A DNA stretch of 64,000 bases, from NCBI GenBank assembly GCA_015179125.1, contig WHVA01000411.1, forward strand, positions 39,759-103,758, read 5' to 3'. Positions within the stretch are counted from its first letter, which is position 1; each line of letters opens with the position of its first letter. A model generated the notes under the pieces. That model saw nothing but the letters and a program-made list of their open reading frames with translations. It was not told where the DNA came from and ran no database searches. Source of the DNA: Gautieria morchelliformis. Taxonomy: Eukaryota > Basidiomycota > Agaricomycetes > Gomphales > Gomphaceae. A program made the translations under genes and the position numbers. Positions 4,781-53,515 of this stretch are shown here, piece by piece.

Positions 4781-5224
4781 TCAATGGGCTTGGGTGGACC
4801 GTGGCCTGGAGGTGAGCCTGCTCACCTTTGGCGTTTGGTCCTCTTTCGACGAGTCTTCGTCAAAAGATACTTTGCCCGTGGGGATTTTTTCATCTCCCAT
4901 ACGAATCGTCCCTGGGCTAGAGAAGTCCAGGGTGACACCCAGCTTCCTCAGGAAAGGTGTTCTGAGGATCGTGTCATAGTATTCGACGTTAGCTACGTCG
5001 AAATACTCGTCGTGGAGTTTACGACAAAATTTAATGGTTGTGTTCATTCCATAGTTGATTGTGGAACGACTCCCGATGCATGCCAATTGCAGTGCATTTG
5101 GCTGTTCTAGGGCAAACGTTTTCATGCCCGTGGCCCACGTGAATTCAGGGGAGATCAATACCCCTGCACTCCCACTGTCGAGGAGACAGTGGGCCTTCAC
5201 GCCGTTGATTTCCCAGTATCCTGA
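4781..5224 (-). pseudogene. Gypsy A1 aspartic protease region
   Basis: This is a retropepsin-like domain between gag and RT. The active-site loop CLLDSGSAGVLIS is visible near the N-terminus. A pepsin-fold core follows, including the FDVANVEYYD and RTPFLRKLGV segments typical of gypsy proteases. The link to gag is cut by the LTR A insertion at 5225-6255, so the gag-pro frame is broken. Confidence 0.8.
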
Positions 5225-23874: not shown

Positions 23875-26826
23875 TTGGATATCCCAGTGACACCCATTCA
23901 TTCTACAAGGGATGAGGTCATTGTTCTTAGTTCAGATACAGATGAAGTCGAACCAGCACGCACTCAGCACAAGACCAACTGCAAATCTGGAGATTTGTAT
24001 TTGGGAAGCATCAAAGCTGCCCCGAAGTCAAGGGCATGGAATCTGGGTCATACAGCCAATCACAATGGGGATGACACAGAAATTGCTGGCATTCAAGATG
24101 TGCCAAATGGGGCCCCCCCACTCCTGAGCGTGTATAAGAGCCTCGAGGATGCACGCAGCGTGATCTATGATTTCGAGGAGTCTCGGGGTAATAAGATGCG
24201 AGTGGGGCAGAGTAAACGAGTCAGCAAGTCTGCAGAGAGTGGCTTAAAGAAGGTCACCTATTGCTGCTCCTGTTATGCATCACACACACCAAAACACAAG
24301 CCCAATATTGACCCATCCGATTTTCGTTCCGGGAAGTCCATTCGCAAGAATTGTCTTGCTCATGTCAATGTTAATCGCATTCTTCCCTCATACCAATGGC
24401 ATATCACTGCCGCCAATTGGACTCACAACCATGATGCTATACTTGCTCCTGGGGCTGCTGCACCTCGGCCCCCAGCCCCTGACCAGCGAGCAGCTGTAAG
24501 GCAGTATGCCTGTGCTGGTAACTTCACCCGAGACCATCTCAGGACTATACTAGCTCAGGAGTTCCCAGGACATATCCTTGAGGACCGTCAGATTTCTAAC
24601 ATCATGAACGCTGCTGGTGCAGCGGGTAGGGCCGAGGTTTCCAGACTGGGCGGTGATATCGCCACAGTAATAGCACGCCTGGATTCTCAAATTGCTGATG
24701 GAGAGGCCTGGTGATACAAAGTCCGGCTTGATGACTCCCAGGTGGTCTTTGGTCTTTGGTGGCAGTCACCTGAACAAGCTCAGTTAGCTACTCGGTTCTA
24801 TGACATACTAATTAATGACAATTCCCATAACCGCAATCAGTATGGATACCCTCTCAATATCAGCATTGCCATCGACAACTTTGGACATAGCCGTAATGTT
24901 TGGTATTGCTTTCAGGAGCGGGAAGATGCTACCAGCCATTCATGGGTCTTACGCAATCACTTGGAAACTGCATGTCATGCACCTGAAGTATTTGTGTCAG
25001 ATAGAGATGCAGCACTATGGGTGGCCATAGCAGACATTATGCCTACCACATACCATTTGTTTTGTCTGCATCATCTGACAGGAAACATTGGTGACCATGT
25101 TCGCCCTATGCTTGGAGGGCGGTTCCAATCATTCACTCAAGATTTTTGGTCTGTATACCGTGCTGTGTCACCTGAGGCATTTGACCATGGGTGGGATGAA
25201 TTACTATCCAAGTACCCATGCACACGTCCCTATCTCGAAGGGCAGATGTACACCGATCACGAACATTGGGCATGGGCATGGGTCTCTCAGGTTTTCACTG
25301 CAGGCATTAGGACCAATGGCCATGTGGAGTCTGAAAACCGAGTTCACAAGGCCTTTGGTGGGCCAAAAGTGCCACTTGCGCAACTTTTTGACCAACTCAA
25401 TGCATGGACAGCAGAACAATCCTTCCACGAGCAGATCCGTGTTCGAGAGGTGTGTATTGATACTTTTTCCTAAGCTACAATGCTGAGGACACATCATCAG
25501 GCTACACGGCGCCACCATGCTACCAACCTAGAGAGCCTTTTTGCTCGCCCACTCACACTGCTTCGACAATATGCAGGCCCCTTTGCCCTTCAGTGGTCCT
25601 ATCGGGAAATGGGCCAAAGCCTTTACTATCATACTGAAGTCTTGCAGCGACCAGAGGGTTTACGCACCTGGGTGAGAAACCAATTTAAATTTTCAGTGTG
25701 TATACTCAAATTAGCTTAGTCTGAATATGCAGTTGCTGCACAGGAGGAAAATGGTTATCAATGGGAAGCTGGAGAAGAAAAGGTACCGACCATACCTGTC
25801 CTGACTAAATGGATTGACCGTAAGCTGGTTTTGCAGAGAATGACAGACTTGTTCGAAAATGACCAGAAGTATGTATCAACCAAGTGGCTGATCAGCCTTG
25901 TTATTGCCCAAGGTTTGCAGATCACACATCTGCTGCGTGTGACACATAAAAGCACTGGGACAACACACACTGTTGCTTTGCTTGAATCAGGTCTGTATGT
26001 TTGCGACTGCTGCATGGGGTCAAACCTTGGGATACCATGTCGCCATTTCTTCAGTGTTCTAACCTCAGTGAAGTCACTGCCATTTCATATTGGCCTGGTT
26101 CGCCGCCAGTGTGTACCACATCCATTGTACAACTAATCCACAACTGATTGGCATCAGTTGGCTGCAAAATTCATACCTGGAGGTGCAAACTATACCACCT
26201 GTCACACTGACACACTCTGTCCCCGACCAGCAGCTCAGTCTACGTTCACAACCCCTCCCTACAGCCCTAATCTTGAACCCTCTTGACCGCTCTCATGCCA
26301 ACAGCATCCCTGATCCTCCAACCCAGACACTACCGTCACATGCTGTGTATGCAGAAGCTCAGGCACACCTCAAACCACTCCTGAGAGGCATCCAAACTCG
26401 TGAGCAGCTTGATAAGCTAGTGATAGATCTTCGAGTAGTCCAGTGAGTTATCTGATATTCAGTGTGAGAAATGACTCACCACCACTCAGGGCTAGCCAAG
26501 AACAACAACTGAACCCATCCCCACCCTTTAATGACCCTCCCCTCATTCAACAAAAAGGCCGACTGCGAACTGCACGTATTACGTCTGGACGTGAAGGTGT
26601 TCCTCGTGGAGGTGGACAGCATCGGCGATTAAAACCATCAAGCCATCCTGTTCAACAAGCTGTCAATGAGAGGAACCCAGTGACCGAATCTCCACCACGA
26701 AAACGACGTGCTCCACCTACCTGCAGCCTGTGCCACCAGCCTGGTCACAACCGACTCGGCCATTACCAATATGCAACTGAAGTGCAGGAAGCTGAAGTCA
26801 GGAAGTGGAAATCCCTGAGGGAATAA
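23875..26826 (+). pseudogene. MULE (Mutator-like) transposase, three nonsense codons
   Basis: One frame can be followed from 23875 to about 26110. It has a FAR1-type DNA-binding region (YCCSCYASH...GKSIRKNCLAHVNVNR), then the MULE catalytic core with Asp in AIDNFGHSRN, Asp in VSDRDAAL and Glu in GHVESENRVHK, then a SWIM zinc finger (CDCCMGSNLGIPCRHFF). The C-terminal part, after a frameshift near 26110, has GRLRTARITSGREG and a knuckle-like CSLCHQPGHNRLGH. In-frame stops are TGA 24712-24714, TAA 25471-25473 and TAG 25717-25719, each one C-to-T change from CGA, CAA or CAG. The element can no longer make a full transposase. TIRs and TSD were not identified. Confidence 0.85.
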
Positions 26827-27218
26827 TGAGAGAGAAGTAATTGAAATGGTGGAGTTCGGGAGATGGGAGCATGTTGCCAACAGTGTTAGCTCGAGATAGT
26901 ATGCAGTGATAGTACACAAAGGGGCACCAGAAACATACCTAATGGCCAGATACATGAATCTGCATTAGCACCTCACAGGCCACTGGTTGTCACGACGCAG
27001 CTCAGCGCGAGTCCAGAAAACCTGCGTAGGCACTATCGTGAGACCGGTGAAAACGCACGAGCGTTAGGTAGGACCAGGAATTTGGCTAAATCCCAACAGC
27101 GGCCGAGAATTTTTGCCGCTAGCACGCGCAACCCGGGTTTCCAGAGAGCCAACTATTTTGGAGGTAGGGTTGCTATTCCCATGGGGGTTTCGAGGGGTTT
27201 CCAAATAGAATAATCCGG
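26827..27218. other. No gene; unidentified repeat-like sequence
   Basis: Probably the 3' flank of the MULE followed by sequence of unknown origin, with a GC-rich patch (27085-27210). It ends at the truncated LTR B. Confidence 0.35.
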
Positions 27219-27479
27219 TATCAAGGGTCGATCAAGGGTCAGGGAGGTCAGGGGGATGCAAGGTTGATGGCGAGTGCCAAGTGATGTCCCTGGCTGTGGA
27301 GCTTAGTATAATACAGGCTCACTGACATTGGGTGTCCTTAGACTTTTCTCTTTGGAATTCCCCTTGTCAGGTGAGAATCCCCTCTCTTGTACACTCAGCT
27401 CATTTATACATACTTTGGATTTCCCCTTGTCAGTTGTGTGGTAGTGTGACCTCCACAGCCAGCTAGGGTTTCCCTTACA
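27219..27479 (+). repeat. LTR family B, 5'-truncated
   Basis: Matches the 3' two thirds of the gypsy B LTR (TCAAGGGTCGATCAAGGGTC onward) and ends GGTTTCCCTTACA. The uninterrupted sequence here defined the site of the solo LTR C insertion in 14793-15888. No internal gypsy sequence follows. Confidence 0.75.
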
Positions 27480-37199: not shown

Positions 37200-38329
37200 T
37201 AGTGGAAGAAAAACTGTGCTTCTATTTTTTCTTCAAAGGCCTGGGGGCACTCTCGGGCATTGTGACCGGCCTTGTGGCACCGGTGGCAAGTTACCGCTGG
37301 GCGGCCGCTTGAGTGTGTGGTCTACATCCATCAGGGCTGGGCCATCCCTCAGTGGAACTGGGGGTTTGGGCTAGTTTGGGCCCTTGGAGTAGGAGCTTGG
37401 AGTTGAACATCGGGACTCCAGCTGCCTTTGGGAAGGTGCTGGTACCTCGGATGGGTTTGCTGGCACTTCAGCTTGTTTCAAGGAACACCTCATTCATGTC
37501 TTGGTTTTGGGACACCCTTCAGGTGGCCTCAGACCATCCTTCGGGGTCATCAAAGTCTGGGGCACTGTCTCCGAGTAAGGTGACCTTGTTCTGTAGGCTC
37601 AGGTCCAATCAGAACTTGATGACCTTCATTATATCATCATCGTACTCCGCTAGGTCTATCAGCTCCTGGAACCGGTCAATGTACTTGTTGATTGGGTCCT
37701 TGCCCTGGTACCAGCCAGTCCCTTCAAGTTTTGTAAGGGCGGTGAGCTGCTCATTCCTTGGGCAGAACTGGTCTATGAAATCCTTCTGGAAATCCGCCCA
37801 AGTCTGAAAGTGCACTTGGGTTTTCACTTCAGCATGTAGGACTTGGTTGGCAAAATGCGTTGCTCAGCCAGACTTGGAAAAACAACAGGGCCCAATGGAT
37901 GCAGGCCTGGTCTGAGGGGAACACGTCTCCACTGATCACAAAGTATAGGGTCAGGGTGTTCAGGAAGCCTTGGCCTGGGGAAATCCAAGGGTGCTGCCAG
38001 CTTCACCTTCCCTCGTCTTGGACCCATCACCACACACTTGGTTTCCTCTTCTGAATCTTTGAACCCTCTGTGAACTCTTCAGTTTGTGCTTCTTCTGTTC
38101 TCTGCTCTTGGACCGTCGGCCTCACAACTAATTTAGCCATGATGAGGTGCAGTGTGTTTGATATTTCCTCCTTCTTTGCTTGGCTGGCCTGGAGCTCTTC
38201 TTCAATGTTCCAGATCCATTTGGACGAATCCATCATCACAGGATTCAAAGGGACACTCAGGGGCTGACACAAAGCTGAAGGAATCACTTTGAAGGAGGGG
38301 GTGTCGGGTGCGGTATGCTCGGATGGCAT
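37200..38329 (-). pseudogene. Gypsy B-like gag, frameshifted
   Basis: Minus-strand pieces: N-terminus 38329-38027 (MPSEHTAPDTPSFKVIPSAL...WNIEEELQASQAKKEE), middle in shifted frames, capsid part 37827-37609 (DQFCPRNEQLTALTKLEGTG, DRFQELIDLAEYDD), and the CCHC knuckle CHRCHKAGHNARECP at about 37230-37290. It is clearly the same gag family as 16304-16972. No protease or RT follows; the copy breaks off near 37000. Plus-strand frames here are shadows. Confidence 0.8.
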
Positions 38330-38422
38330 TCTGAAATCTGATTTGGAATCACTGATGCCGAAGTTGCCTATGGTGTTACTGCATGAACTGACAACTGGTC
38401 CTTGGGGAAGAGCATTTCCTGC

Positions 38423-38829
38423 TGTAAGGGCAATGGCAACTCTCCCTAGATAGCAGAACTCATGCAGTCTGGCAGAGAAGGATACAAAGATGAATAAGAG
38501 CTATCTATGACATACAACTCGCCTGGCAGAGGAGGATCCAAAGAGGAAAGGCTGAGGACCTCTGCTGCCACCACACTACCTATATATCTCATGCCCCTGA
38601 TCAAAGTCAGGCATGCTGGCTCCACTCCTGACACAAGTCCGCACCTCCACGGCACTCGCCTAACACACACATCTTGACCCACATCCTTGGTGCCATTCCA
38701 GGATAATTCCCAAAGTTGAAGGTTTGTGAACTTGGCCTGGCCCTTGGGATGTGCTTGGGTTGGAACCGGCCCTTGGGTCAGAACCAAAGCTGAGACGGGA
38801 AATATCCTTGGGAGGGGGTTCCCCTGACA
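38423..38829 (-). repeat. 5' LTR of the gag remnant, family B-like, 407 bp
   Basis: On the plus strand it runs from TGTAAGGGCAATGGC to TTCCCCTGACA, the same ends (inverted) as gypsy B LTRs (TGTCAGGGG...CCCTTACA). It lies directly upstream of the minus-strand gag. The interior is considerably diverged from the other LTR B copies. Confidence 0.7.
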
Positions 38830-38989
38830 GGACACCCACCTGAGACTAAACAGCCTCAGGGATTGTTCCTGAGTGGCATCAGGTTGTATGCAGGGTTGTC
38901 CATATTAGGTGATTGCTTTTAGATTAAGATGTTAAATGATGCCTTTAGCAAATAAATTCTATTGCTTTGTGGTTGGGACCGCTATGTTC

Positions 38990-39358
38990 GTCCCTCCTCT
39001 GTGTGCTGACTAAGCCCCTCGAGACGTGTCCGGCACTGATGTATGGAAGTCACGTGACCATGTCGATAGGAAAATGATGTCGATCTAAGGAATAACTAAG
39101 TCAAAATAGTTCGCTTTTGAGGTAGTTTAGAGTAAGCAGTAATAGTGAACTCTCAACGAAGAATTGGAGTAAACTATCGAGATCTAAGCTCTGTAGCTAT
39201 CAAACAAGACTACAGTGACTTCAGGGTGTGAAACAATTGATTCTGGATGATTTCGTTCATACATTTGTAGTAGCTACTTATACTATATTAGTGGTAACTA
39301 CTGGTGTTCGAGATAGTGAGCAGATGGGTCGAAAAACCACTTGTAACTAGAGGGGTGA
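38990..39358. repeat. Second copy of repeat E, partial
   Basis: Similar to about 1560-1935 of the 937-bp element, including GAGACTCTCAACGAAGAATTGG-like and CTGTAGCTATCAAACAAG stretches. It is cut at 39358 by the LTR A insertion. The left boundary is unclear. Confidence 0.7.
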
Positions 39359-40630
39359 TGTCAAGATTGGTTTTTAGGCGTTAATATTGTGTATTAGTGA
39401 ACACAGTGAATGCCCGAATGACTTGTGCGAATAAGTATGCCGTTCGGCGAATAGGTGAACCAATAAATGTTCACAAGATAAGAGGGCTGCCCGAGCGGAG
39501 CTCGCCCTATCTACAGTCGTAGCGAAATCGCCCATGGCACTAGATGATGTAACGTGCAAGGTGTCACAGAAGGGTTGTCTAAGTAGCGACAATCCCTTCT
39601 CCGGCGAAGGTGCTCCTTCGGAGCCCTTCGCTGCCAGCACAGAAAATAGTTCGAAGGCTAAGGTAACGAAGATGAAGTATGAGAACTCACCAGTGGTGCC
39701 TAAGTCCTCTTCTGGTCGAAGATAGAAATCTCCAGGAGAAGGCTCAAGACGATGATCACCGCGAGGTCAAGTTTGCACAAGATGGACGATGTATGATAAT
39801 TGAACTGGGGAATATACATGTGAATGTAAACTACTTATATCGAATGCTCGTAAGGTATCAGCGAATAGGAAAGAGGCTGTCGTGAGTCAGGGTTGGATAG
39901 GGGTGCGCAGTCATGATACTAAGTAGATGGAATAAACATACAATAGAGTGAGGGAAGAGTGCGAACATGAAACAACGGAGAGTAAAGGTGGCAAAGGCAC
40001 CTATGTATGAAATCATGTCTTGGGGCCCGCATATACACCGCCCTGCACGGGTTCTTCATCTGCTGGGTTGATCCCACACGACCTATGGGTAGGACGTCCC
40101 GCGAACGCACCCTGCTCATATGAACACCAAAAGGGGGTTGGACTGAGAAGCTGATGGAGCTACTGACGAGCCATCATGCCGGGTAGGGATATCGATTCTG
40201 ATTTGATGGTGTGCCTGCTGGCGAATGATGCGAGCAGTGAGTGGCTGTTTGGCGAAATGTGAGGAAGGGCCAACGGAGATGACATAGGGCAGGAGTGGTC
40301 GAGGTGGAGGGCGAAGCCGAGCGAACACGGAGGAGAAGTGGCGAAAGGGGAAATGGGGATAACAAGGTGTAGGAAATACACACGTCATGACAATCCGATC
40401 ATAGGAACATCATCGAAAGAAGGTTGAGCAGAGGAGGTGATAGGCTCAGCGATGACTGCCAAGTCAGTCCAAAGACGTCGATTGTGCTTTGACGGCGTGG
40501 CTATGATAAATGGCGCGAACAGCGAGGATCGGTTGCTGAACACGGCGAGGGTGATCGGAACGAACACGGAGGTGGAGTGAGAAATGGGAAAACAGGGCAT
40601 CTGAGTATGGGAAATAAACGCGTCATGACA
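39359..40630 (-). repeat. Solo LTR family A, 1272 bp, inverse
   Basis: Starts TGTCAAGATTGGTTT and ends GCGTCATGACA. The flanks are GGTGA (39354-39358) and GGTGT (40631-40635), matching 4 of 5. It retains the GAAGGTGCTCCTTCGGAGC palindrome that is missing from the 11083-12326 copy. Confidence 0.85.
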
Positions 40631-42213
40631 GGTGTTATCGAATGAACAGCCAATCTTTTTATTCATCTCCTCCGAGGATAACGCGAATCGGGTCTGGGTG
40701 AGGTAGAGACCAGATCAACGGTAACCAGCGATTGTCAGGCCTTTGCTCACCTGTGTTGTGACATATGCCAGAGATTGGCGAGTAACCTGTAGCATGTCAG
40801 CCAGTTGCACATTCAGAGTCACAAAGAAACGCTAGCCTACTCTAATAAAACACAACACACTACCCACAGTATCCTATGCTTGGATGTTGTTGATACTACT
40901 AGTGCTCCTCCGGGGTGGTAATGGTGGTTGCCACTTTTTGCTCCCGTCCCCAGGGGCCGGTGGCTCCGGGGGCCGTGGGGTCACAGCGCTGGTGCTTGAT
41001 GACTCTGCCTTTGAGCAGCATCGGGACACGTGGTGTGTCGAGGTCGGACGGCAATGGGGAATCCAATGCAGACAGGGGCGGCGGGGACGCGCAAATTGCG
41101 GTGGGAGAAGAGTCGCCTATTGTCAACAAGGCTTGCTCCGACGCGTGCCGCATAAGCAGCGGGGGCGGCTTTCATGTGGCATCCTGCTGGATGACACTTT
41201 TCAGTGCCTGAGATGCGGGGATTTGACATCTGCAGGTGAAGGTGATGCAGGTGATGCGGATGCGAGGGCTGGCACCGGCTGTCCGGACGAGCGGGGGAGG
41301 TGTCGGGTGTCCCCAACTCAGGGTCGAATATGGAGCCACCTCCGAGGGAGAAGATACATGGCTCGCGTCCACCGCCCCTGTGGCCCCCTCCACTGCGCCG
41401 TCACCCTCCAGCTGCACCTGCACCTGCACCTGTGTGCTCCCGCTCCGGAACAGTCTACAGATTCTGGATCGTCTTCCCAGCACCCATAGTCTACTCCCAC
41501 CTCCCCTACATCCTCCACCTGCCCACTCGCCAGCACTGGCGCGGACCCGAGCACTATCACCTCCCTGCAGTGCAGCGCGTGATTCCGTTTTTGAGACTAT
41601 TAGTGTCAGCCTGCCACGCTATTTTGGCCCTCCTTTAGCTGAAAGTAAGGTGCAGTTAACTGTTGTGCTTCCGAAGTATGCGCACCCACCTCTTTGAACC
41701 AGAGTCTGACGAGTTCGAAGGCGTATCAGACAGCGAAGATGACGAGGATACGAGGATGAGGATGGAGATGGTGGTGAAGGATATAGCTGCGTGAGCTACC
41801 GCACCATGACAGTGCTAACATGATATCGATGAGAGAGCTGGAACGGTTACTTCAAGCTTGTAAGTAGGTGAATCCCTTGGACAGTACTTACAGAGTCTCC
41901 ATGATGCTTATTAGGTGATTATGATGGTTTGAAACGATTATAACGTAATATACGGCAGCCCCAAGCCTGCCTGCACATTATAGGGCCTGTAAGGCTAACC
42001 AGCACTGTACAAGTGTGTATCAGCTTACGAATTCCGCAAGTGCTTATACAGTAGTAGCATCCAACAACGTTGGTCATTACCGTGCATCTGTCCTGTCTCC
42101 TCCACTCAGGTAGTTATACAGGCTACAAGACTTGTCACGGCATCCGGGGATGATACTTGGCCGATCAGTATGAGTTGGGACCTACAAAACACGCACACTC
42201 AGGAAAAGGTGGG
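40631..42213. other. GC-rich stretch with long overlapping frames, unassigned
   Basis: The part 40880-41640 is GC-rich and open in several frames on both strands, with a (CACCTG)n patch at about 41415. A minus-strand frame (41483-41172) and the next (41153-40899) could be exons of a low-complexity protein, but no family is recognised. Near 41730-41770 a short acidic run (SDSEDDED-like) is encoded. It may be more captured gene debris. Confidence 0.3.
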
Positions 42214-42592
42214 TCACCATGGCAGGCTATCTTTTGGGTGCAGCACTGACTGTCAAATAAGTCTTCGATGTGCATCCCGATGACCACTTTGCATGCATGG
42301 CAGATGTTGGATGGACCACAGGTCACACGTATGTCACCTCGTTCTTGCATCTCATCGTTCTTCACGTCGTGTAGCTATATTATCTACAGTCTGCTCACCA
42401 ACAGCATTACCATGACCATATTCGAGTCCACGCCTGTATACCCCACCGTCCTGTTCACACACTTCTAAACCGCGATCATATATGAAGCGGATGAGCCAGG
42501 TGAGGGTCACAACATCACATTTGCTGAGCTACTGCGCGAGGTCTGCTCGGTTGCCAACGTTCTCAAGTGTTTTGGGGTCAAAAAGGGCGACA
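42214..42592 (+). pseudogene. Acetyl-CoA synthetase fragments, order reversed
   Basis: Two pieces of an AMP-forming acetyl-CoA synthetase. Piece one (42214-42447) reads MAGYLLGAALTVK, TAA (42258-42260), then [20 protein letters not shown]. After a 46-nt intron (42329-42374) it continues NSITMTIFESTPVYPT. Piece two (about 42470-42592) reads [20 protein letters not shown] and [14 protein letters not shown]. In the enzyme, piece two comes from about residues 110-150 and piece one from about 290-345, so their genomic order is swapped. The retained intron shows that genomic DNA, not cDNA, was copied. The last codons run directly into SEC31 sequence. Confidence 0.8.
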
Positions 42593-42706
42593 AAGACACA
42601 GAAGGCTTATTTCGAACGCCAGACGACTACTCTACCATACCTTCGTCTATATCAGTTGATCGTGACCAACGACCTCGTGGACATCGTTCAAAACACAGAC
42701 CCGCAG
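42593..42706 (+). pseudogene. SEC31 (COPII coat) fragment 1
   Basis: Reads [20 protein letters not shown] and [18 protein letters not shown], the well-conserved segment of the SEC31 alpha-solenoid. SEC31 forms the outer cage of COPII vesicles at ER exit sites. The fragment joins acetyl-CoA synthetase at its left and TOF1 at its right with no spacer. A second copy of the same segment lies at 46750-46885. Confidence 0.8.
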
Positions 42707-44525
42707 TGAATTCATCGAGTCTTGCTTCAATTGTGTGTCCTTTCATTACACTTTGTTTCTTTCCTAGAAGCAACCTCGCAATAGTGTTTTTGGGATCCTT
42801 GCTCAAGGATATAAAGTTGGAGCGTCTGAAGATAACAGAGAAGGACAACTTATGCCTTATTTTCGTGACCAAGTGGTTCCTTGAGTTCTTCATGGCTGCG
42901 CTCACCAAGGACAGTGGTGTGGGCACCGGTTGGGGTTGGGGTTTTGAACTGGTGGCCGAGGTGGTTGACAGAGGATGGATAGTCTGGATTCTATGCCAAA
43001 TGAGAGGTGCGATCGAGGAAAAGGTAGGGCGAGTGCTCTAGGCGATGTATGCGCTGACAGAAACATTTCATTGTACCATAGCCCAAGCAGTGGACAGAAC
43101 TGCAAGCTGGGATCGGGTGCCTGACTCAGCTACTACGTCTCATCGACAGCATGTCACTTGTCTCAGACCCTACGCTTTCTGAGGTGGCTGAGATTTTGCA
43201 AGGTCAATTATACTATAACGGTGAAGTGCTCGACCTTGGATTTGAAGGACTTCAAAGCTACAAAGAGCAGAGCATAGCGTAAGTGTGTTTGGTCACCGTG
43301 AGATCCGCATTAAGGAAATCGCATTGTATAGCTACCTCGATCCAGCTGGCTTATGTTCTTTTGCAGATGCTAGAGAAGTGGGGTAAGCAGAAGGGGGATG
43401 TTTATGTCCGAAGATGACATGTGCAAGCAAAGAACAGAGGCAGGGGAAAGGGAGGCAGAGGTTTATCTTCTGATCAGCATGCATCCATGCGGGTTCTAAT
43501 ATCGTATGTCTAGGCAAAGGCGTCCCAGAAGAAGAGGGCGTTTTGGATGTAGCCGATGTGGATGACGAGGTGGCCGTGGAAGATGAACACATAATTGAAG
43601 AGCAGATGTTCACCTTCAATAAATTTGAAGCTGTGCGTCTTTTATATCTCCCTAACTTCCAACTATTGGTTGATGTTGGCCATCACAACAGAAATTCACC
43701 AACGAGGATATTACCCATACCCTTCTTGTCTACCTGGCTCGATTTAAGGAGTTATCTGCTGAGAATATGAAGCGAGTGGTCAGCTTGTTGCATCGCCAAG
43801 CCATCAAGGCTAAAGCTGGGGGTCTTTTCTTTAAAGTACGTGCTGTGATCAATAGCTACAGATCTGATCAACATCCCATACAGGTTTCCACCCTCGATTT
43901 GTTCAGGTCCATCCTAGCGGAACGGAAGTCATTGCTGCGGACTCAGCCTTATAAAGATCTTGTTCAGCTCATCAATTACATACTTAGACAATTCTTCAAG
44001 GCGGCCGAGAAGGAACCCTTTCTGCTTGTGGAGGTCGGTCTCATGAGCACATGTCTATATACACGGGCTTACTCAAGGTCCATAGGCTTTCTTTCCTAAA
44101 AATCGTGGCCAGTGGAAAAACTTCTCCAGCTAGGACCCCAAAACGCACGACAAAAAAGCCGACAGGGTGCCTGATTCAGTATGTTGACCATACAAAACTG
44201 ATATTTGACGTAACATTTATATCACGGTGGCGTTACAGACATGGAAGCATTCGCAAGATGTGCAAGTGAAGAAAGGCTACTCACGGAGCGAGCAGCTTGG
44301 AATCGCTGTCGCATGTCTTATTGAGAATGATCAGTGAAATCTTGTCAACTGGATCAAAGAGGTAGATAGTTTCGCAGCATATTAGCTTGTTACTCATCTT
44401 GCACCCTCGTATAGATACTAGCAACTGTTGTCGGTATCAGACAACGCATCGTGGAGGAGATGGATGGACCAGATAAGAACAAGGATTCTGACTCTGAAGA
44501 AATCAATGAGGATGAACAAATCACG
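42707..44525 (+). pseudogene. TOF1/Timeless (fork protection complex) fragment
   Basis: About the middle third of a Timeless-family replication fork protection protein. It starts EFIESCFN, then [16 protein letters not shown]...[65 protein letters not shown]...KFTNEDITHTLLVYLARF, MKRVVSLLHRQAIKAKAGG, VSTLDLFRSILAERKSLLR and PFLLVE-AFFPKNRGQWKNFS. It ends near GIRQRIVEEMDG. Several introns are preserved, for example 43840-43883. The coding is broken by a frameshift at about 43340 (after AYLD), a lost donor near 43624 and a TGA near 44335. It begins and ends inside exons and is bounded by SEC31 on both sides. Confidence 0.85.
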
Positions 44526-44530
44526 AATGG

Positions 44531-45105
44531 CAGGAATTTTCGTCGTTCTTTGCACGTTTGCGAAGCAGGAGGAATTTCCGGCCTTGGCAGAGTTGGGCAA
44601 CGTCTCGAGTTCCAAGGCAATCTTATCAAGGTGTTGTCCGTGGACAATTCTGTGGAGAAAGCCTTGGAGTTCAGGAAGCATGTGACACTGTGCTATCTGG
44701 CAGCTACCAAGCTAGAAAAAAATAGTGAACGTCTGGGTGGACGAGATGCGAGAGGAAGAAGAATCACTTCAGCGGAACACCGAAGAGCTGCCCGATAATG
44801 TGTCGCATTACACTACCCATGCTCAAGCTTTACAGACATTCATTGAAAAGGTTACTGTTTTCCACAGCACGACGGACTACATTGACGTTGATCTAAAACA
44901 AACGCCTGAGGACACTGATGCCAAATCATACAAGCTGGCTCTTTATGACCGTTACTTTGAGTATACAGATCTTCTCACCTCTCAGGGCCTAGTAACTCAT
45001 GCCGTGAAGTATTTGGAGTACACAGCCACGGATTACAAAGGCAGCCAGGGCTCTGAGGTGGACTTTGATGTCGCTAGGCAGCAACTGCTTCTTGCTGCTA
45101 TATAT
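44531..45105 (+). pseudogene. SEC31 fragment 2
   Basis: Continues SEC31 within about four residues of where fragment 1 stops: IFVVLCTFAKQEEFPALAEL, then after a one-base shift GQRLEFQGNLIK, LEFRKHVTLCYLAATKLEK, another shift in an A7 run, VNVWVDEMREEEESLQRNTE, HAQALQTFIEKVTVFH, and LYDRYFEYTDLLTSQGLVTH...DYKGSQGSEVDFDVARQQL. It ends abruptly near 45105. Frameshifts show that it is not expressed as SEC31. Confidence 0.85.
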
Positions 45106-45264
45106 GTGCACAAAATACTCAAAACTCCAACACTTTGCAGAGACAGCTTGTCAAAACGTTGGCACATGCAGGGAATGGTAGGGGTGATCTATGTATTGTT
45201 GAACAAGTGATGCGATGCTATTGTGTTTCAGGTGCAAAATTGCGGGTGGGACGTTCCTTATTCT

Positions 45265-45744
45265 GGTCTATGGCATTCTCCCTGTTCTCATTGCCTTTTT
45301 CTTCACCCCTTGTCATTGGTGGTGCGCTATAGGTTGGTTTGGCTGCTGGCTTGGTGGAACCATCATAGTCAGCAGCTTCCATGGTGTAAGTTGTGTTGAT
45401 TGTGGTTTCTCGTGGTCTATCCCATCCCTTCTTGCATCAGGACAACTCCAGGTCCTTATATCTAATGTATGGTTTTCTCAGATATGCATGATGATCTACA
45501 TTTTGGTCTATGGCATTCTCCCTGTTCTCATTGCCTTTTTCTTCACCCCTTGTCGTTGGTGGTGCGCTATAGGTTGGTTTGGCTGCTGGCTTGGTGGAAC
45601 CATCATAGTCAGCAGCTTCCATGGTGTAAGTTGTGTTGATTGTGGTTTCTCGTGGTCTATCCCATCCCTTCTTGCATCAGTACAACTCCAGGTCCTTATA
45701 TCTAATGTATGGTTTTCTCAGATATGCATGATGATCTACATTTT
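45265..45744. repeat. Tandem duplication, two 240-bp units
   Basis: Two head-to-tail copies (45265-45504 and 45505-45744) differ at only a few bases. Each contains what looks like a plus-strand intron (GTAAGTTGTG...CTTGCATCAG). The plus frame is long and hydrophobic, the minus frame reads proline/glutamate-rich (KPTYSAPPTTRGEEK); neither is recognised. Near-identity means a recent duplication. Confidence 0.85.
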
Positions 45745-46330
45745 CGGTGACCTCCGGCAACTGCGCTCCTTTGAACTCGCATGGCCCTCCATTTCCGGCC
45801 CTCAGGCGATCGCCCGCACATGCCCCAAGCTCAAGAGCTTTTTCACGTGTGAAGGGAAGGAAGAACAAACTGACAATGGCAACCCTGGGAAGAGCACAGG
45901 GTCAGGAGGGGGGACGGGGATGGACCCAGCACCATCTCAGCCACCCGCCCGCCATGCTGTTGAACTCCCCAAACCGCTTGAAGCACAACAGAACATTGGT
46001 GAGGAAAAGGGCACAAAGATATCACCTGGAAAGAGGCCATGGTCTGCAGGTTGCGCATCGCACACGTCCACGGGTACGCCTATTGTACATTTGGGCGCCG
46101 GTGTGTTCAGGTTCAGCATGGGTACTGGGACAACGGAGTCCGAGGCATCGCCTACCATGGGGAGCGGAGATATTGTCGTTGGCGGGACTAACAACGGAGG
46201 GGCGCAGCTGAATGATGATGACTTTGGGATAGAGATAAGCCCTGTGTATTATTACTCGGGACAAGGTCCAGTTCCGGTTTGGTTGGGAGTGTCGTTTGCC
46301 TCGGCTAAGTCCGCAGTGTACAGTTTTTGA
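45745..46330 (+). pseudogene. Unrecognised gene fragment
   Basis: An open plus-strand frame starting FGDLRQLRSFELAWPSI and continuing through CPKLKSFF, a Gly/Pro-rich stretch, VHLGAGVFRFSMGTGTT, NDDDFGIEISPVYYYSG and VWLGVSFASAK to a stop at 46328-46330. The composition is coding-like. No family is recognised and no start codon is evident. Position and style suggest another captured fragment. Confidence 0.4.
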
Positions 46331-46529
46331 TTCACCATGCTGACATTCTTTGGTTACTGAATAGCTCCTAGAGATTGTAGCCACATCCCAGAGTCGTCTA
46401 AGCCCACATATAGCATCCTCTCAGAGGAGCTGAGGCGTTTAAGGCAAATTTCCCCCATACACACAATTATTATGTTAGTTGCCTGTTCCTGAACTGTTGA
46501 GTTAGCCACAGCAAAAGCGTATGGTTGAT

Positions 46530-46885
46530 GACACTGAATGACAGATGCCCTTTTCGATGCTCTCAACTGTGAGACGCTCTCAAAACCCGTTGTTGAGCAG
46601 TTGGTGAATTTGACAAACGGTAAGATATTATCTTGGGGTAACCTTGATGATCTTCAATGGAGTTTTCTTTTGCAGCAATGTCCACTGGAAATCGAGACAT
46701 GGCTTCGAGTCCATGTATCACTCTGCATTGCCTCCAACCATTTCACAGACGCGATTTTACTTGCAGTCAAAGGAGGCGTGGAGCTCTTGCAAAATACGCA
46801 GGCCTATTTCGAGCGCCAGACAACTACTCTACCATACTATATCAGTTGATCGTGACCAACGACCTCACGGACATATTGTCCCAAG
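46530..46885 (+). pseudogene. SEC31 fragment 3 (second copy of fragment 1 region)
   Basis: Reads VSLCIASNHFTDAILLAVKG, then [20 protein letters not shown] and, in a shifted frame, [12 protein letters not shown]. It overlaps the same SEC31 codons as fragment 1 (42593-42706) and extends further upstream in SEC31. A clean intron (46620-46676) lies upstream. Differences from fragment 1 include loss of the LRL residues, so the two copies are independent or old duplicates. Confidence 0.7.
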
Positions 46886-47615
46886 TGCGTTCAATTCTGC
46901 CGATTGCCCAGAATGCTATCCAATGTGGTAAACTGGTCATTCTGTAAGTGAAGCCGGGATCATCGATTTCTGAGCATCTCAGTTACCTCCAGTTGAGGGG
47001 CCCTGCATCAGTGAAAGTATTGACTTCGGTCGCAGTAATAAACCCAGATTGTCATCAAAGGACTCACTGATGGGTGGTAACCAATGTATATTCAAGTATG
47101 CTAGAGCCCATTCGTCCGAGTTTGGATTTACTGCTGCACTGGGCGCATCACTTTCTTTAGCAGCTTGAACTTCTGAACCCACTTATTGTGATAATAGTCG
47201 CGTACTGTCATGACAAAATATCGTGATTTGACACTACCTCGCCAACCCTACGCAGTTTCAGCTCAATCCAACCGTGTACATCTCGTCACGTACTGTTTCT
47301 TTCCAGAGAATATGGTTGTCCTGCTGTAGCAAGTGAAAAGTATGGGTGGTGAGCAACAACACGGAACAGGACAATTACAGGGTCAATGATTCTGTTGTGT
47401 GGTCCGGCTTCAATGGCTTCAATAACGCGGTCACCTTCTCTCCTGACTGTCACCTTCGTCTCCTCTACAATACGACTCTGCTGCACCTCTATCTTTTGTG
47501 CAAAAACAACATAACAATACATTATATTTAGACTGATGTTCATCAATAACGCATGCGCTTATAGTAATGACTCGTGTTCTACTGATCCTCATAATGATGC
47601 ATGACCGTCTCCCAC
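46886..47615. other. Unassigned, coding-like but unidentified
   Basis: A plus frame after a possible intron reads LPPVEGPCISESIDFGRSN...FTAALGASLSLAA (about 46983-47167)); a minus frame over the same bases is also open. Then an A/T-richer stretch with no gene. Probably a further gene fragment joined to SEC31. Confidence 0.3.
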
Positions 47616-49263
47616 CTATTCCCTGACAAGATTCCTAATAGCTTTCCTGACAGCCTGTGTGATAAAATTAGCGTCACCCCATGACAATCCAATGTTTGCC
47701 ATGATAGTATCTACCGCTACGTCCTTTAGTTCGTTTAGAAAATACACCTGGTTCATTTCAAATTTTTCTTTGAGGGAATCGATGTTTCGGCCTCTGGATT
47801 TGGGCCAGGTACGAACCTCCTCAAGAAAGTCATTGATGCTAGGAAAATCAATGCTCCCAGGTGTTGTAGGAATGGGCTCACTCTTTCCAGAGTTGGGTGG
47901 AGTGGTGGGATGGATGGGATGAATGTTTTGAGCAAATGCTCGATAGTCGTATTGTGGGAAGAAGCCTGGAAACTGCATGACAGGAAAAGAGCCTTGAATA
48001 CCGAGTGGGGCATGACCGGGTATGTTCTGCATCGGCACCTCTTCAGACTTTTCTTTTGGAATCGCGTTTTCTTCTTTACGGTAATGGAAGTCTCGGAAAT
48101 GTGAATTGTTTGGTGGAGTTTTCAGAGTGACACCATGCATCTCAGAAACCTATTTGTGCATTATTAGCAGTGAGTAGCATGGATACAGTGTATGTACATA
48201 CCAAGGCCACCACCCAGGATTGCAGTTGGTTCCAGGACAAATGTGCATGCTCTCCATTCTTGGTTAGCTTGCAAACTTTTGAAACGCAAGTGCTCTTGCC
48301 TCAGTTAGAATATTCCGCGTTCAACACCTCCATGTAATCCTTTTCCCATTTTGTCAACTGGCCACACTCTTCGATGTCAGACCCTGAATTGGCATCAGAC
48401 TCAGTGTTCAAATTGTGGATCCGAGCTTCTCTCTTCTTTCTGCCCCGGCCACCATTATTTGCCACCGTTTTTCCTTTTTTGCCAGAAAGTGCGTACCGGA
48501 GCGACACCATGTACTATAATACTATATCAGATACGGCTGCCATGGCGATCCATATGCACACTTACATCTTCATCCAGGACAATTTCTACTCCTACCCCAC
48601 TCGCATCACCCTTTTTCTTCTTTACCTGAGCGCTCCTCACATCATCCTTGAGAGTGGCCCAGTCATCTTCCTTGGCAAGCTTCGAGAGATGCTTGTTGTG
48701 CACTCCTTTGAGGTGGTAAGCTAGCTGGGGCATTGTTTTCACATTTTTGTAGCACCCAATAGCTTTGAAAACATGCTCCTCCACGTCATTGAAGTGCGCA
48801 CTAGCTGGGATTTTGACATGTTCAATAAATCCTTCCGCTTTGGTACAATCTGGAACACACAAGACAATGTCTAGATAAGACATGAGCATATATATAATAA
48901 AAATATTAAAATACATACTAGGCTCATCCTTTACCTGTTTGTGAACGACATCTACTGGCTCCTCAGATTCTGAGCTGTCCGGTAGCTCATTGGACTTGGC
49001 CTCGGATACGGTTTCCGGTCGAAACTCTTCTTGATCTGAGGCCGGTTCCATCATGTCAGCAAATTGGACCTTTTTCGCTGCCTGACGCTTCGGTCGAGAA
49101 GTGCCGGTTTCATCAGCTGGCAGATCATTTTGTCAGTTCCTGATGAAATTCCATTGTTAGGTATAATATACTGACCAGGTAATATTCTTTCCGATGATTC
49201 ATTGACCATATTATCTCTGGTTGACTTAGAAGCCTTCCTTTTGTTCTTACCATTCCCCATCAT
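47616..49263 (-). pseudogene. Five-exon hypothetical gene with C-terminal SAM-like domain, one in-frame stop
   Basis: Exons on the minus strand: 49263-49176, 49116-48919, 48849-48566, 48513-48202 and 48149-47616, with four introns of 52-69 nt and consistent phases (472 codons). Order: basic N-terminus (MGNGKNKRKASKS), acidic linker, a conserved-looking domain (KTMPQLAYHLKGVHNKHLSK), a Lys/Arg-rich patch, a Cys-containing segment (CVSKVCKLTKNGEHAHLSW, WVVALVSEMHGVTLKTPP), a Pro-rich stretch and a SAM-like domain (INDFLEEVRTWPKSRG...DANFITQAVRKAI). The only defect is TGA at 48301-48303, where a Cys codon is likely. Such proteins are repeated in Agaricomycete genomes and may be transposon-associated; function unknown. 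Confidence 0.65.
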
Positions 49264-49689
49264 TGCAGCGGCACAGCAAGTCAAATCGGGTCGGATAATG
49301 CCGACTCAGGCCTTTTTACGTGTGAGTACTTCATGCTCACTTGTTCTTTTCCGCTCTGACACGTATATTAGCGCACCTGCAGACACAGTGGAGGTAAGTT
49401 TTTCTTCTTTGAATCTTCATTCATGGTTCTGACTGGATCTGCACTTTGTTGCATTGTGCCCTCGAGAGTGCTTGCCGCAGGCTTTTTTCTATCTTTTTGA
49501 AATAGCAAGTCCTGTGTAGAATAATGGAAGGCCCCCTATGCCAGTCATATCGTTGGACTCAATTACCCAGCTTGGGTTTATTGTCAATTCCCGGCCCAAA
49601 GCTAAGGTGCACATTCTCTATGATATGACGTGCATTTATTCTCATCGCCAGCAATCATATTATGATTTTAGATCTCACCTACCATGCAG

Positions 49690-50215
49690 GCTGCAGAGCG
49701 CTTCTCGCATCCGTACATGCGCACCGTCGCATACGATTTCAAAGACGCTTGAGGAGCAGGGGATCTCTCTGGGCCCCCTCCATGTCATAGCGGCGCTGCA
49801 AGTCTTGCATGCAACCACCACACTCGCTCACAGGATGAGCTCCATCTCGGATCTGCTCGTCCCCGGAGGCTATGTCCTTACGGTCGACTTTGATGGCAAC
49901 GCTTGGCACACCAGCTCCCCTGGTACACTCTGGTATGATTTCATCATTGGTTGTTTCCAGGAATGGTGTGTTTTCTGTCTCCTATGTTCACGCTTCTCTT
50001 TTTAACACATTTTTTTAACTGGATAGGTTTGACTATGGCGAGGACCGGACGAAGCATTGCACGATTTCCCTCGGACAGTGGGGGAGGCTCCTACGTGAGG
50101 GTGGGTTCAACTGTGTTACGTTCTCGTGCATTCACCGGACAGAGGACCACTCGCTCATGTTCCTTGTGCCGAAAGCCAATGCCAACCACCACATACTTCC
50201 CCCTCCCATGATTAA
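49690..50215 (+). pseudogene. Methyltransferase domain fragment of polyketide-synthase type
   Basis: Reads AERFSHPYMRTVAYDFKD, a frameshift, LEEQGISLGPLHVIAALQVL, SDLLVPGGYVLTVDFDG, SPGTLWYDFIIGCFQEW, then a 60-nt intron and FDYGEDRTKHCTISLGQW. A second frameshift in a G5 run is followed by LLREGGFNCVTF and EDHSLMFLVPKA. This is the C-methyltransferase type found inside fungal polyketide synthases; a stand-alone relative is possible. The SAM-binding N-terminal half is absent. Two frameshifts make it non-functional. Confidence 0.65.
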
Positions 50216-50327
50216 TGGTCGTGTGTTTTCACTGTACCCTAATTCCTTAGCCCTCTCCCAGTACGTCCTCTCCCTCCATATTTTGACCCGCTCTGACTGC
50301 ACTCTTCCCAGAAATTGTGGTGTTCTA

Positions 50328-51262
50328 ATGCGTGCATTATCGTCGCCCTTGCTTCTCGCCCTCCTGCCCGCATTGGCCGTCTCCCAGTCCTCGCCATCCG
50401 CCCCACTCCCAGACCCCACCCAGATTCTGTGTCCCAATGTGCCACTCATTCATTCTGCATGCCTGCCGGCTCAGCAATCCCTGTCCCCAGGGGAATCCTC
50501 GTACATCTCCTCCCGCACCGACAATGTCCTCCCTGAAGCATGGAAGGCCTACCTGGGCAACGTCAATGCCGCGTCCTCCCCACCTTTGCCCCGCTATGTG
50601 GCCGAGATCTTCACCTGCCCCTCAGAAGGTCTTCCAAAGCTTGGCATAGCCACCTCAGGGGGTGGATACCATGCCGCATTTTTCGGAGCGGCCTCCCTCA
50701 CCTCTCTGGATGGGAGACACACGACCTCCATCACCAAGGGCACCGATGGGCTCCTCCAGGCCACCACCTACCTCACAGGCCTCTCGGGCGGCTCCTGGCT
50801 CACCCTTGCCCTCTCGCAGGCCAACTTTCCCACCTTCCCCAACCTCATCTTTTCCCCTCCACCTGCGACGTCGCCTACTGACCAGAATGCCACCTTTGGT
50901 GGCTTCATCCCCCAGTTTGACATTACGGCCTCAGGGCCCACCGCACAGGACACGCTGGCATACATCGAGGTCCTGCTGGCCAAGTCCTAGGTGAAACAAC
51001 TCTCGTCGGGGCTGCCTATTACCATTACGGACCCGTGGTCCCGCGGTCTGGCCAGACATTTCGTCAACGGCACAACTCCCCAGAATGTGCTGGGAAACGG
51101 TACCCACAGCGCTGGTATCCTGCTCTCAGGGCTCACCAGTCTGTGAGTGATGCCATTCCTGTGTGGCATTGCCATCTAAGTCGAGCAGGCGATCGTTCCA
51201 GGCCCATGCTCAGCTGTTCCCCATTGTTGTCGTCAACTCCATTCCACCAAACCCTAACAGAT
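50328..51262 (+). pseudogene. Lysophospholipase (phospholipase B type), N-terminal part
   Basis: Starts with a signal peptide (MRALSSPLLLALLPALAVSQ), then ILCPNVPLI, PKLGIATSGGGYHAAFFGA and the nucleophile elbow GLSGGSW with the catalytic Ser. A TAG at 50988-50990 (from CAG by C-to-T) interrupts it; the frame continues LSSGLPITITDPWSRGLARH to a donor near 51143, and an exon to 51262 reads LFPIVVVNSIPPNPN. The catalytic Asp region and C-terminus are missing. As annotated it could at most yield a truncated secreted protein. Confidence 0.75.
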
Positions 51263-51840
51263 GCCTTGCTTGCAGTGAAAATTTTTAGTATCCAAACACC
51301 CGACGATATTCAGCTTCTGGGGATGTTATCTCTGTTGGCAAGGATTGTTACTCTCCCGAACTCGTCGCTGTCAATGGTCATGCTTCTTCGCCATCCCCTA
51401 CTGGCAAGGAGTGTGACTCCCCCAAACTCGTTGCTCTCAAACATCTCTCACGCCTCCATTTGCAACATTGAAGGTACGATTTGGGGAGATGACCACACTC
51501 GAGTCCAAGGAATGGTTTCAAGTCATGCTCTCTCCCCTGGTGTATGAGCTCTTTCTTTTTTTTTTTGAGAAGTATCACTGCACAATGGAGCGGCGCACGT
51601 GGTGGACCTCGCCGTGCCATGGCCAAACAGCCATTACCAATCCTTGCCGGCCCAAGCAGCAAGTGATCACCCTCCACCCGGTGTCTTAGATGTGGAAGTT
51701 GTTAAGGGGTTTAATATCTTCAACTTCACGATCGCCATCGCAATCATATTCAATCCGTCAGTCCCAGCGCATGCCGCCTCACCTCAGCTGCCTCCAGCCA
51801 TGCTTACGCGCATGTTTTTTTTTTTTTTTTTAGATATGTG
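51263..51840. other. Unassigned between lysophospholipase and transporter fragments
   Basis: Contains an imperfect internal repeat (GGCAAGGATTGTTACTCTCC / GGCAAGGAGTGTGACTCCCC), poly-T tracts at about 51555 and 51818, and short open frames without recognised domains. Confidence 0.3.
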
Positions 51841-52140
51841 AACCCAGTGTGCTGGGGAGTACTACATCGTGTACGACTGCTGGCTGCTGTTGAAGCCCAT
51901 GTTCTGCTACCTCTTCATCGTGGAGACGCGGAAGCACACGCTCAAGGAGATGTCTGTGTACATTCCCCCTCCCCCAGCCCATGATGCCTCTTACATCACC
52001 CACACTGACCGTGTTCGATTGTGCGCAGGATCTTCGATGGGGAGGGCGCACAGAGCATGTTCAGCAAGGCGGCGGCAGTCATGGGGCTCAGGGACACACA
52101 CGAGAGCGAGCTCGACGAGAAGGCGTCGGGGGGGGGGCCG
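51841..52140 (+). pseudogene. MFS sugar transporter, C-terminal fragment
   Basis: Reads AGEYYIVYDCWLLLKPMFCY and LFIVETRKHTLKE, an intron, then IFDGEGAQSMFSKAAAVMGL and THESELDEKAS. This is the last transmembrane helix, the ETR/K motif and the cytosolic tail of fungal hexose/lactose-type transporters. Everything upstream is absent. It is the last recognisable fragment of the mosaic. Confidence 0.75.
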
Positions 52141-52479
52141 CGATGTAGTCAGTCCGCTGACGTCCCAGGATCTATACCTATTTTTTCACTTTGTGGTAAT
52201 AGTGGGTCTTAACATTATTACCAAGTAGCAATAAAGCTTGTATTGAAAGTACAACAAGCCAACTTGACAATGTTGCCACCCCTCAGCACCAAAATGTGAC
52301 ATATAAAAAGTTGGTTTTGCTTGGATTTCATACTTCTGTGCCCTAGCTATGATCAACTTATGTTCAGGTACAAAATCTCAAGGCAATCCAAGCAGAAACT
52401 AGCGAGAAATCGTTGTTCGAGTCTTGCATGCTAAAATGGAGGCAAACTTGACGCGCACCTTGCGTACTGCAAACAGGTG

Positions 52480-52871
52480 TAATTACCCCATATGTCTATC
52501 CGACTTCTGCTCCCTCTGGAATTTGCTTAGTACTACCCCATTACATGTTGCCTCAGCTCTTTGTATAAAAGCCCCTCGTGTATGCTCCTTATTTCTGCAA
52601 TCAGATAATCACCTTCAATATGTGATTTCCTTTGCTCTATCTCCTGTTCTTAGCACAGCGAGTTTTGCAAGACCTCTGTCTCTCCACCTTCCACCTCCTG
52701 CCTTCCAACTCTGTTTCCAACTCAAGTTCTGACTTCTGTTTAGTTCAATACTTTCCGACTTCCGACTCCCAACCTGAAATACTTAGGACGATAGTTCATT
52801 GGGGGCCCAACATATAAGTTGAAGCCATTGTCCTTTCTAGTTCCGACTTGCGGAAATCTCGATACGTAACA
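52480..52871 (+). repeat. LTR family C, truncated, forward
   Basis: Matches the reverse complement of the left half of 15093-15784 (CTTTGTATAAAA..., CTTAGCACAG...) and ends GATACGTAACA. The 5' part is missing. Confidence 0.7.
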
Positions 52872-53515
52872 AAGGTGGAAGTCGGGAAGTATCGAGGTAA
52901 GTCAAAGGTTGGAAACTATGTCAGAAGGTGGAAGTCGGAAGGCGGAGAGGCAGAGGTCAAGAAGAGGAGGGACAGAGGTCAAGATGAGAAGGGACAGAGG
53001 TCAAGATGAGGAGGGACAGAGGTCTTGCAATACCTGCTGTGCTAAGAACAGGAGATAGAGCAAAGTGAATCACATATTGAAGGTGATTATCTGATTGCAG
53101 AATCAAGAGTATATATGAGGGGGTTTTATACAAAGAACTGAAGCAACATGTAATGTTGTACTACTAAGCATATTCTGAGGAAAGCAGAAGTCAGATAAGA
53201 TATACAGGGTAAGTCACTAATCAAGAACAAAGAACAAGGTGGGTGCAGGGTAGAGTCAAGAACAATGGGCAAAAGAACAAAGGGACAGAAAGCATATTTG
53301 GCATGACAACAGGACTCCAGAGGGGTCAGACATATGGTCTTGCTGTGCTGCAAGTCAAGTCCAGGGGGTCCAAGTGATAGAGTTGAATGGGGAAAGGATA
53401 TAACAAGGGGCAGGACTATCAGATGTACCAGAATGTTGGAAATGAGGCGGAACTGAGTGTCAGAAGTCAGAATAGTATGGTCATAACACCCATCAGGTTG
53501 GGAAGTCATTGAAAT
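52872..53515 (-). repeat. LTR family C, inverse copy
   Basis: Follows the forward copy directly, making an imperfect inverted repeat centred near 52871. It shares GGTTTTATACAAAGAACTGA, GGGTAAGTCACTAAT and GGTGCAGGGTAGAGT with 15093-15784. Confidence 0.65.
52951..53016. repeat. Minisatellite, three 22-bp units
   Basis: Three units of CAGAGGTCAAGATGAGGAGG plus GA with small differences, inside the inverse LTR C copy. Confidence 0.85.

Follow-up and report, generated by a model that had tools for sequence, protein, structure and literature searches.

The window analysed here is a stretch of 64,000 bases (C462:39759-103758) from the draft genome of the truffle-like basidiomycete Gautieria morchelliformis, which comprises 122,073,039 bases in 1113 contigs (given below as C numbers). 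Between about 40632 and 52484, it contains a mosaic in which pieces of unrelated host genes lie in the degenerate remains of a transposon (Table 1). Whole-genome sequence searches with the mosaic as query divide it into blocks with sharp borders. A preliminary description of the part from 42214 to 52140 had seen a run of fragments from unrelated genes, several of them joined without spacer. This picture is borne out, although the feature extends beyond that part and the sequence at 47519-49681 belongs to the transposon itself, as its second gene (gene D), and was not captured. Within these 9,927 bases, 6,992 match seven host loci elsewhere in the genome at 85-96% identity, 2,163 belong to the second-gene region of the transposon, 639 are common to sister elements without having a full parent, and 133 match nothing assigned. 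Eleven of the 14 joints that were laid out leave only 0-8 bases. The joint 46270/46336 is filled by sequence from the C920 locus in inverted orientation, and 77 and 43 bases are left over at the joints 51258/51336 and 51458/51502, respectively.

The mosaic has more pieces than had been listed: the acetyl-CoA synthetase (ACS) sequence is made up of two, and a fragment of the C781 locus (46875-47510), the inverted piece (46271-46337) and the fragment at 40813-41581 have to be added. Two open reading frames (ORFs) of the latter gave no Pfam hit. Furthermore, the fragments do not all share one strand, as had been claimed, since gene D and the open frame of the C781 piece are on the minus strand and a HUWE1-like piece in a sister element, described below, is antisense.

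Table 1. Features of the mosaic and its left border, in window coordinates; identities refer to matches elsewhere in the genome.
Feature	Position	Strand	Matches and remarks
High-copy repeat, 1.27 kb	39359-40631		adjoins the element; at least 39 other copies at 91-95%, most ending at 40630-40632 (best 40 of 5976)
Backbone block A	40631/40632-40805	+	95-98% to C667, C425, C271, C1004, C164, C1, C400, C763
Fragment in the place of the syntaxin-like and HUWE1-like pieces of C425	40813-41581		87-88% to C846, C204, C181
Backbone block B	41683-42062	+	85-86% to C425, C1, C271
SEC31 fragment	42057-42220	+	C659:3739-3903, 91%
ACS fragment, downstream piece	42215-42446	+	C257:162694-162925 minus strand, 88.8%
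ACS fragment, upstream piece	42447-42592	+	C257:163396-163541 minus strand, 95.9%
SEC31 fragment	42592-42704	+	C659:5278-5390, 92.9%
TOF1/Timeless fragment, nested in SEC31	42708-44522	+	C147:24754-26575, 94.3%
SEC31 fragment, continuation	44524-45098	+	C659:5392-5972, 93.4%
Unknown-gene fragment	45097-46270	+	C920 and C138, 86-93%; 240-bp tandem duplication at 45260-45739; related to hypothetical protein P0003
Inverted 67-bp piece of the C920 locus	46271-46337	-	C920:884-946, 93%; strand opposite to the 45500-46270 match
Older SEC31 capture, scrambled (backbone block C)	46336-46874	+	seven other element contigs at 88-93%; source C659:7248-7616, then 5189-5370
Unknown-locus fragment	46875-47510	-	C781:45618-46251, 95.2%; minus-strand open frame
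Gene D (backbone block D)	47519-49681	-	14 other contigs at 87-95%; subfamily at 69-73%
Polyketide synthase (PKS) methyltransferase fragment, older capture	49682-50241	+	C299:48302-48884, 85.5%; also in C333, C763, C801
Lysophospholipase fragment, nested in PKS	50243-51258	+	C137:175393-176411, 89.9%; PLA2_B
PKS fragment, continuation (repeat region)	51336-51458	+	C299:48886-49074
Sister-shared piece, by eye like a major facilitator superfamily (MFS) gene, with subterminal sequence	51502-52305	+	92% to C763; 84-91% to C333, C801, C309
Right terminal inverted repeat	52306-52484		best 40 of 255 places scored; ends aligned; empty sites of sisters

Parental loci and decay of the copies

Pfam was run on a selection of ORFs, with the curated cut-offs as threshold. 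Above these, the parental loci have AMP-binding (C257), TIMELESS (C147, E 1.5e-52), PLA2_B (C137) and, at C299, the dehydratase and Methyltransf_12 domains of a PKS. On the ACS fragment at 42447-42592 itself, AMP-binding stays below the cut-off. The name SEC31 found no such support: since every hit at the C659 locus (WD40-type propellers, Sec16-type TPR) is below cut-off, it is our assumption, taken partly from the earlier label, and the same holds for the AMP-binding gene of C257, which we take to be an acetyl-CoA synthetase. The label of an MFS transporter could not be confirmed, as two Pfam runs at E 0.01, each with one ORF of the piece, gave no hit. The best match outside the sisters to cover much of the piece, 205 bp on C304, lies beside a DDE_Tnp_4 gene and not an MFS gene.

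The TOF1 piece aligns to the C147 locus in one contiguous stretch of 1,822 bp that runs across closed parental frames. Therefore, genomic DNA was copied, as had been proposed. Parental copies are present in the genome, and the 13 fragments aligned to them have 85.5-95.9% identity, that is, a divergence of 4-15%. Summed over these fragments, the changes from parent to window comprise 298 C>T/G>A, of which 211 are at CpG, versus 84 T>C/A>G. On account of this CpG-directed excess, the pieces in the window look like the decaying side, as expected of methylated repeats. As a control, three other 10-kb stretches of the window were compared with the same parental loci and gave 9, 5 and 1 hits (among the hits listed, all of 53 to 1,031 bp except one of 48 bp); this control is weak because repeats are common in the genome and the loci had been fetched using the mosaic.

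Some of the parental loci are themselves repeated. The SEC31 sequence occurs on three contigs (C36:141648-146989, C550:78232-82636 and C659:1200-9116), which are haplotypes or duplicates, with 99.8% identity between C36 and C550 over 4.4 kb and 97% between C36 and C659 over 4.1 kb. The TOF1 parental locus is present as two inverted arms, C147:23254-28075 and 47951-52772, which are 99.7% identical over 4,822 bp and about 20 kb apart.

The carrier transposon and its second gene

Long terminal inverted repeats, which the preliminary description had named as worth a search, are indeed present in the family and measure 179 bp. Among the best 40 of 255 candidate places scored, the window counted in, 18 form nine outward-facing inverted pairs that are 4.7-26 kb apart, so that nine sisters have both ends. 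All nine paired elements match the transposase region of the C425 element, and at least five of them are among the gene D matches listed; all copy counts for the family are lower bounds. The elements end in T-TA-CACCTG ... CAGGTG-TA-A in 10 of 10 two-ended copies. At the right end in the window, CAGGTG finishes at 52479, followed by the duplicated target TA at 52480-52481 and an A at 52482. For an empty-site test, ten flank pairs were joined with a single TA and searched in the genome, where the best 40 of 2205 candidates were scored. The joined flanks of C271 match uninterrupted sites in at least 18 cases at 100% over 122 of 122 bases, with more at 98-99%, while those of C1 match two such sites (99% and 96%) and those of C14 one, over its full length (98%). 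Insertion therefore takes place at TTAA with duplication of TA.

The left part of the C425 element (103526-113742) encodes a DDE_3-type transposase, with one exon above the Pfam cut-off and two below. The 34 residues from the second D to the first E, in a stretch joined by eye over one intron, correspond to a DD34D/E motif. At least 43 genomic stretches match this transposase region at 77-100%, its own copy counted. C425 and the window have blocks A, B, C and D and the terminal repeat in the same order. Judged from the sequences of the sister copies, with their DDE_3 transposase, DD34D/E motif, TA duplication and terminal repeats, the carrier is an IS630/Tc1-mariner transposon, and the copy in the window is very probably the right part of such an element, degenerate and without its left end. 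Block A stops at 40631, the very point where the 1.27-kb repeat ends, and this repeat probably took the place of the element's left end. In C425, C1 and C271, host fragments are enclosed between two terminal repeats, whereas the window has the right one only; these chimeric sisters, 99-100% alike, also keep the transposase region that the window copy is without.

Gene D is present on at least 14 other contigs, among the best 40 of 159 candidates scored. Members of its more distant subfamily on C610, C985, C156 and C150 have a transposase match of 77-78% about 4 kb away. In their two longest frames, C425 and C186 differ by 35/31/74 and 39/26/82 substitutions at codon positions 1/2/3, although only 15 of the 45 indels in the entire alignment, introns counted, are multiples of three. 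From the third-position excess, D seems to be a gene that belongs to the element and is under selection. Two of its ORFs gave no Pfam hit, and a protein search returned two Gautieria proteins only.

On C400, two stretches with parts of one element type (24904-27338 and 86643-89150) are separated by about 60 kb and agree in orientation; they may belong to an element that has been rearranged or has grown enormously. To the left of the mosaic, the window contains repeats or gene-family pieces at 37233-38829 (71-80% to C387, C47, C197 and C283). Another repeat, at least 440 bp long and present in many copies, lies at 38916-39355. At 52497-53197, a repeat resembling a miniature inverted-repeat transposable element, with two inverted-arm pairs (98 nt, 92%; 97 nt, 80%), adjoins the right end of the element.

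Nested captures and their possible origin

Several captures lie within other captures. The TOF1 piece interrupts the SEC31 fragment, and the C659 locus loses one base across the insert (5390|5392). Likewise, the lysophospholipase piece together with 77 further bases interrupts the PKS fragment at the expense of one base of the C299 locus (48884|48886). A 323-aa open frame at 50019-50990 spans the PKS/lysophospholipase joint and takes in the lysophospholipase N-terminus. The C425 element has a syntaxin-like piece, so named from its peptide, judged by eye, and from a Pfam Syntaxin hit of E 5.9e-5, which is below cut-off. It is split by an antisense piece that is 97% identical to C286 and that we presume, from its pair of DUF913 and UBA domains, to be HUWE1/TOM1-like. 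For this insert, both states exist in the genome. In the elements C164, C1004 and C763 and at the loci C281 (two places) and C560, the sequence is CAACGA-GAAT(G/C)-CTCATC, while C425 and C1, followed across both joints, have CAACGA-[2.58 kb]-CATC, 5 bp being replaced. As assessed by eye, like all microhomology at the joints, the two joints share CGA and CT, 3 and 2 bp, with the donor C286. The C281 and C560 places look like the putative parents of the syntaxin-like piece because they are absent among the block A matches. The HUWE1-like piece is whole in C271, nearly complete in C400 and present in parts in C316 and C667.

Other captures are scrambled. The ACS pieces stand in the reverse of their order in C257, and the older SEC31 capture follows its C659 source in the order 6265-6303, then 7167-7628, then 5189-5412. 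Since one template was revisited repeatedly in changed order, these pieces are more in keeping with template switching than with a ligation of unrelated ends. Repair with template switching, one of the explanations offered in the preliminary description, is a reasonable mechanism.

The captures also differ in age. Several sisters share the older ones, namely the older SEC31 and the PKS together with the MFS-like piece. At the PKS border, these sisters differ by deletions of their own (49866|51671 in C333, 49890|51502 in C763 and 50007|51540 in C801), and the window is without some 790 bp of PKS that C333 and C763 retain. The TOF1, ACS, lysophospholipase and C781 pieces are, apart from the parents, confined to the window among the places scored (the best 40 of 159 candidates on the C781 side and of 313 on the PKS/lysophospholipase side). 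C271 and C1 are chimeric elements of 10.2 kb with matched empty sites; the chimeras have therefore transposed, and have done so recently, because C425, C271 and C1 are 99-100% alike over the stretches compared.

The region is thus very probably a degenerate, left-truncated IS630/Tc1-mariner copy from a family that accumulates host-gene fragments by internal break repair. Each capture would have started from a break inside the element, repaired by copying DNA of an unlinked gene (templated insertion), with the copied ends joined at 0-5 bp of microhomology and few bases lost. The chimeric element would then have been multiplied through transposition, and later breaks inside earlier captures would have given rise to pieces within pieces. 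Finally, the left terminal repeat and the transposase would have disappeared from the window copy at the point where the 1.27-kb repeat adjoins, and this copy would now decay by CpG mutation.

A number of observations weigh against this reading. A search of the window with the right terminal repeat gave chance-level matches only for a left one, and neither blastn with the C425 transposase region nor tblastn with two peptide pieces found a trace of a transposase in the window; the copy is therefore not a complete element. Seven of the ten flank joins gave no match among the candidates scored. Microhomology is clear for the HUWE1-like insert alone, being ambiguous at the TOF1 and lysophospholipase joints, one of which holds the 77 unexplained bases, and the window-specific joints have no second copy. 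The genome search found no full parental gene for the MFS-like piece. Moreover, in the two pieces tested, the differences between parent and capture lean towards third codon positions (10/8/20 at positions 1/2/3 for SEC31, 30/13/45 for lysophospholipase), which speaks against a purely neutral history. This lean may stem from selection acting on the parents or from third positions rich in CpG, but a degree of coding constraint on the captures could also cause it.

It could be imagined that the fragments were taken up in gap repair after excision of the transposon instead of at breaks within it. Excision leaves a break, and gap repair is among the published routes (PMC8277862). The HUWE1-like, TOF1 and lysophospholipase inserts are internal, however, and cost the recipient only 1-5 bp, which fits an internal break better than an excision gap; we consider the excision route unlikely. 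Break repair in an ordinary chromosomal locus, with the transposon pieces as mere parts of the patchwork, would agree with the missing left terminal repeat and with the scrambled or inverted ACS, C920 and SEC31 pieces, which fit serial template switching. This is quite improbable, given that blocks A to D and the terminal repeat are ordered as in the complete C425 element and that the older SEC31, the PKS and the MFS-like piece among its cargo are common to other sisters. An assembly artefact of wrongly joined contigs might be suspected in a draft of this kind, as the window-specific joints are seen once. Misassembly of the parental loci would not yield fragments that are 4-15% divergent with CpG-directed decay, and the block C joints recur on seven other contigs. 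From divergence and decay, such an artefact is judged very improbable.

The preliminary description had also suggested capture by a Helitron or in the manner of a Pack-MULE. Capture by a DNA transposon holds, and is Pack-MULE-like in kind, but the carrier is neither. Uptake of gene fragments by rolling-circle elements is a known property of Helitrons, which occur in basidiomycetes (PMC4289320). Here, the terminal inverted repeats, DDE_3-type transposase region and TA duplication of the sisters rule out a Helitron as carrier, leaving this origin of the fragments hardly any credit. Helitrons are not known to have any of these three features. No RepHel domain was met among the selected ORFs given to Pfam, and no scan was made for Helitron ends. 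In a Mutator-like element (MULE), the duplicated target measures about 9 bp and the transposase is of the MULE type; such a carrier is ruled out by the TA duplication and the DDE_3-type transposase region.

Returning to internal break repair within the element, it is possible to speculate further that the family grows by serial accretion. Its interior would be a hotspot of templated insertion, captures would become targets of further captures, and the selected protein D may process or hold internal breaks. This extension is rather improbable; if true, capture would be inherent in the element rather than accidental.

Relation to known systems

The route by which cut-and-paste transposons gain pieces of host genes is still argued. 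A single genome here offers a before/after pair at base resolution, two captures whose recipient is known from the parent, and chimeras that moved recently, so that the capture of host DNA by jumping genes is open to direct study. It also suggests that basidiomycete Tc1-mariner elements, and not only Helitrons, can shuffle gene fragments.

In animals, Pack-TIRs have been explained by gap-filling and FoSTeST models, with a median microhomology of 2 bp (Tan et al. 2021, PMC8277862). The Gautieria family resembles them in the copying of host DNA inside elements with terminal inverted repeats (TIRs), the small gaps, the short microhomology and the later amplification. In contrast to them, it occurs in a fungus, has several loci per element and nested captures, keeps the transposase region in its chimeric sisters, and has copies from before and after capture in one genome. 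The Pack-Mariner and Pack-TYPE elements of rice and maize are described as non-autonomous, with examples of a few hundred bases and 15-nt terminal repeats (PMC8903248). They have the TA duplication and gene pieces, sometimes from several loci, in common with the present family, which differs by its 179-bp repeats, elements of at least 10 kb, transposase region and second gene.

Among fungi, DNA transposons that multiply acquired sequence are known from ascomycetes, as in the transduplication in Pyrenophora tritici-repentis, where one Tc1/Mariner has an osmosensory-transporter ORF between its terminal repeats (PMC3538342); whole ORFs are involved there, as opposed to many partial, nested genomic fragments in Gautieria. 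A housekeeping sequence has likewise been amplified by a fungal DNA transposon in Dothideomycetes, where histone H3 was captured by a hAT element from an intronless transcript or retrocopy (PMC6710886), unlike the genomic DNA captured here. TIR_1 of Pleurotus ostreatus is, as in Gautieria, a basidiomycete Tc1-mariner with a DDE_3 transposase; it measures 1.6 kb, and the part of the source available mentions no captured host genes for it (PMC4905642), whereas the Gautieria elements carry them. In the literature searched, as far as its accessible parts go, no nested multi-gene capture by a Tc1-mariner element was found in basidiomycetes. On the basis of these sources, the Gautieria family fits the Pack-TIR idea. 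It stands apart in its serial nesting and its size, in having retained the transposase region, and in that copies from before and after capture exist side by side. Transduplication and Pack-TIRs being already known, it is the serial nested accretion that appears to be the new part.

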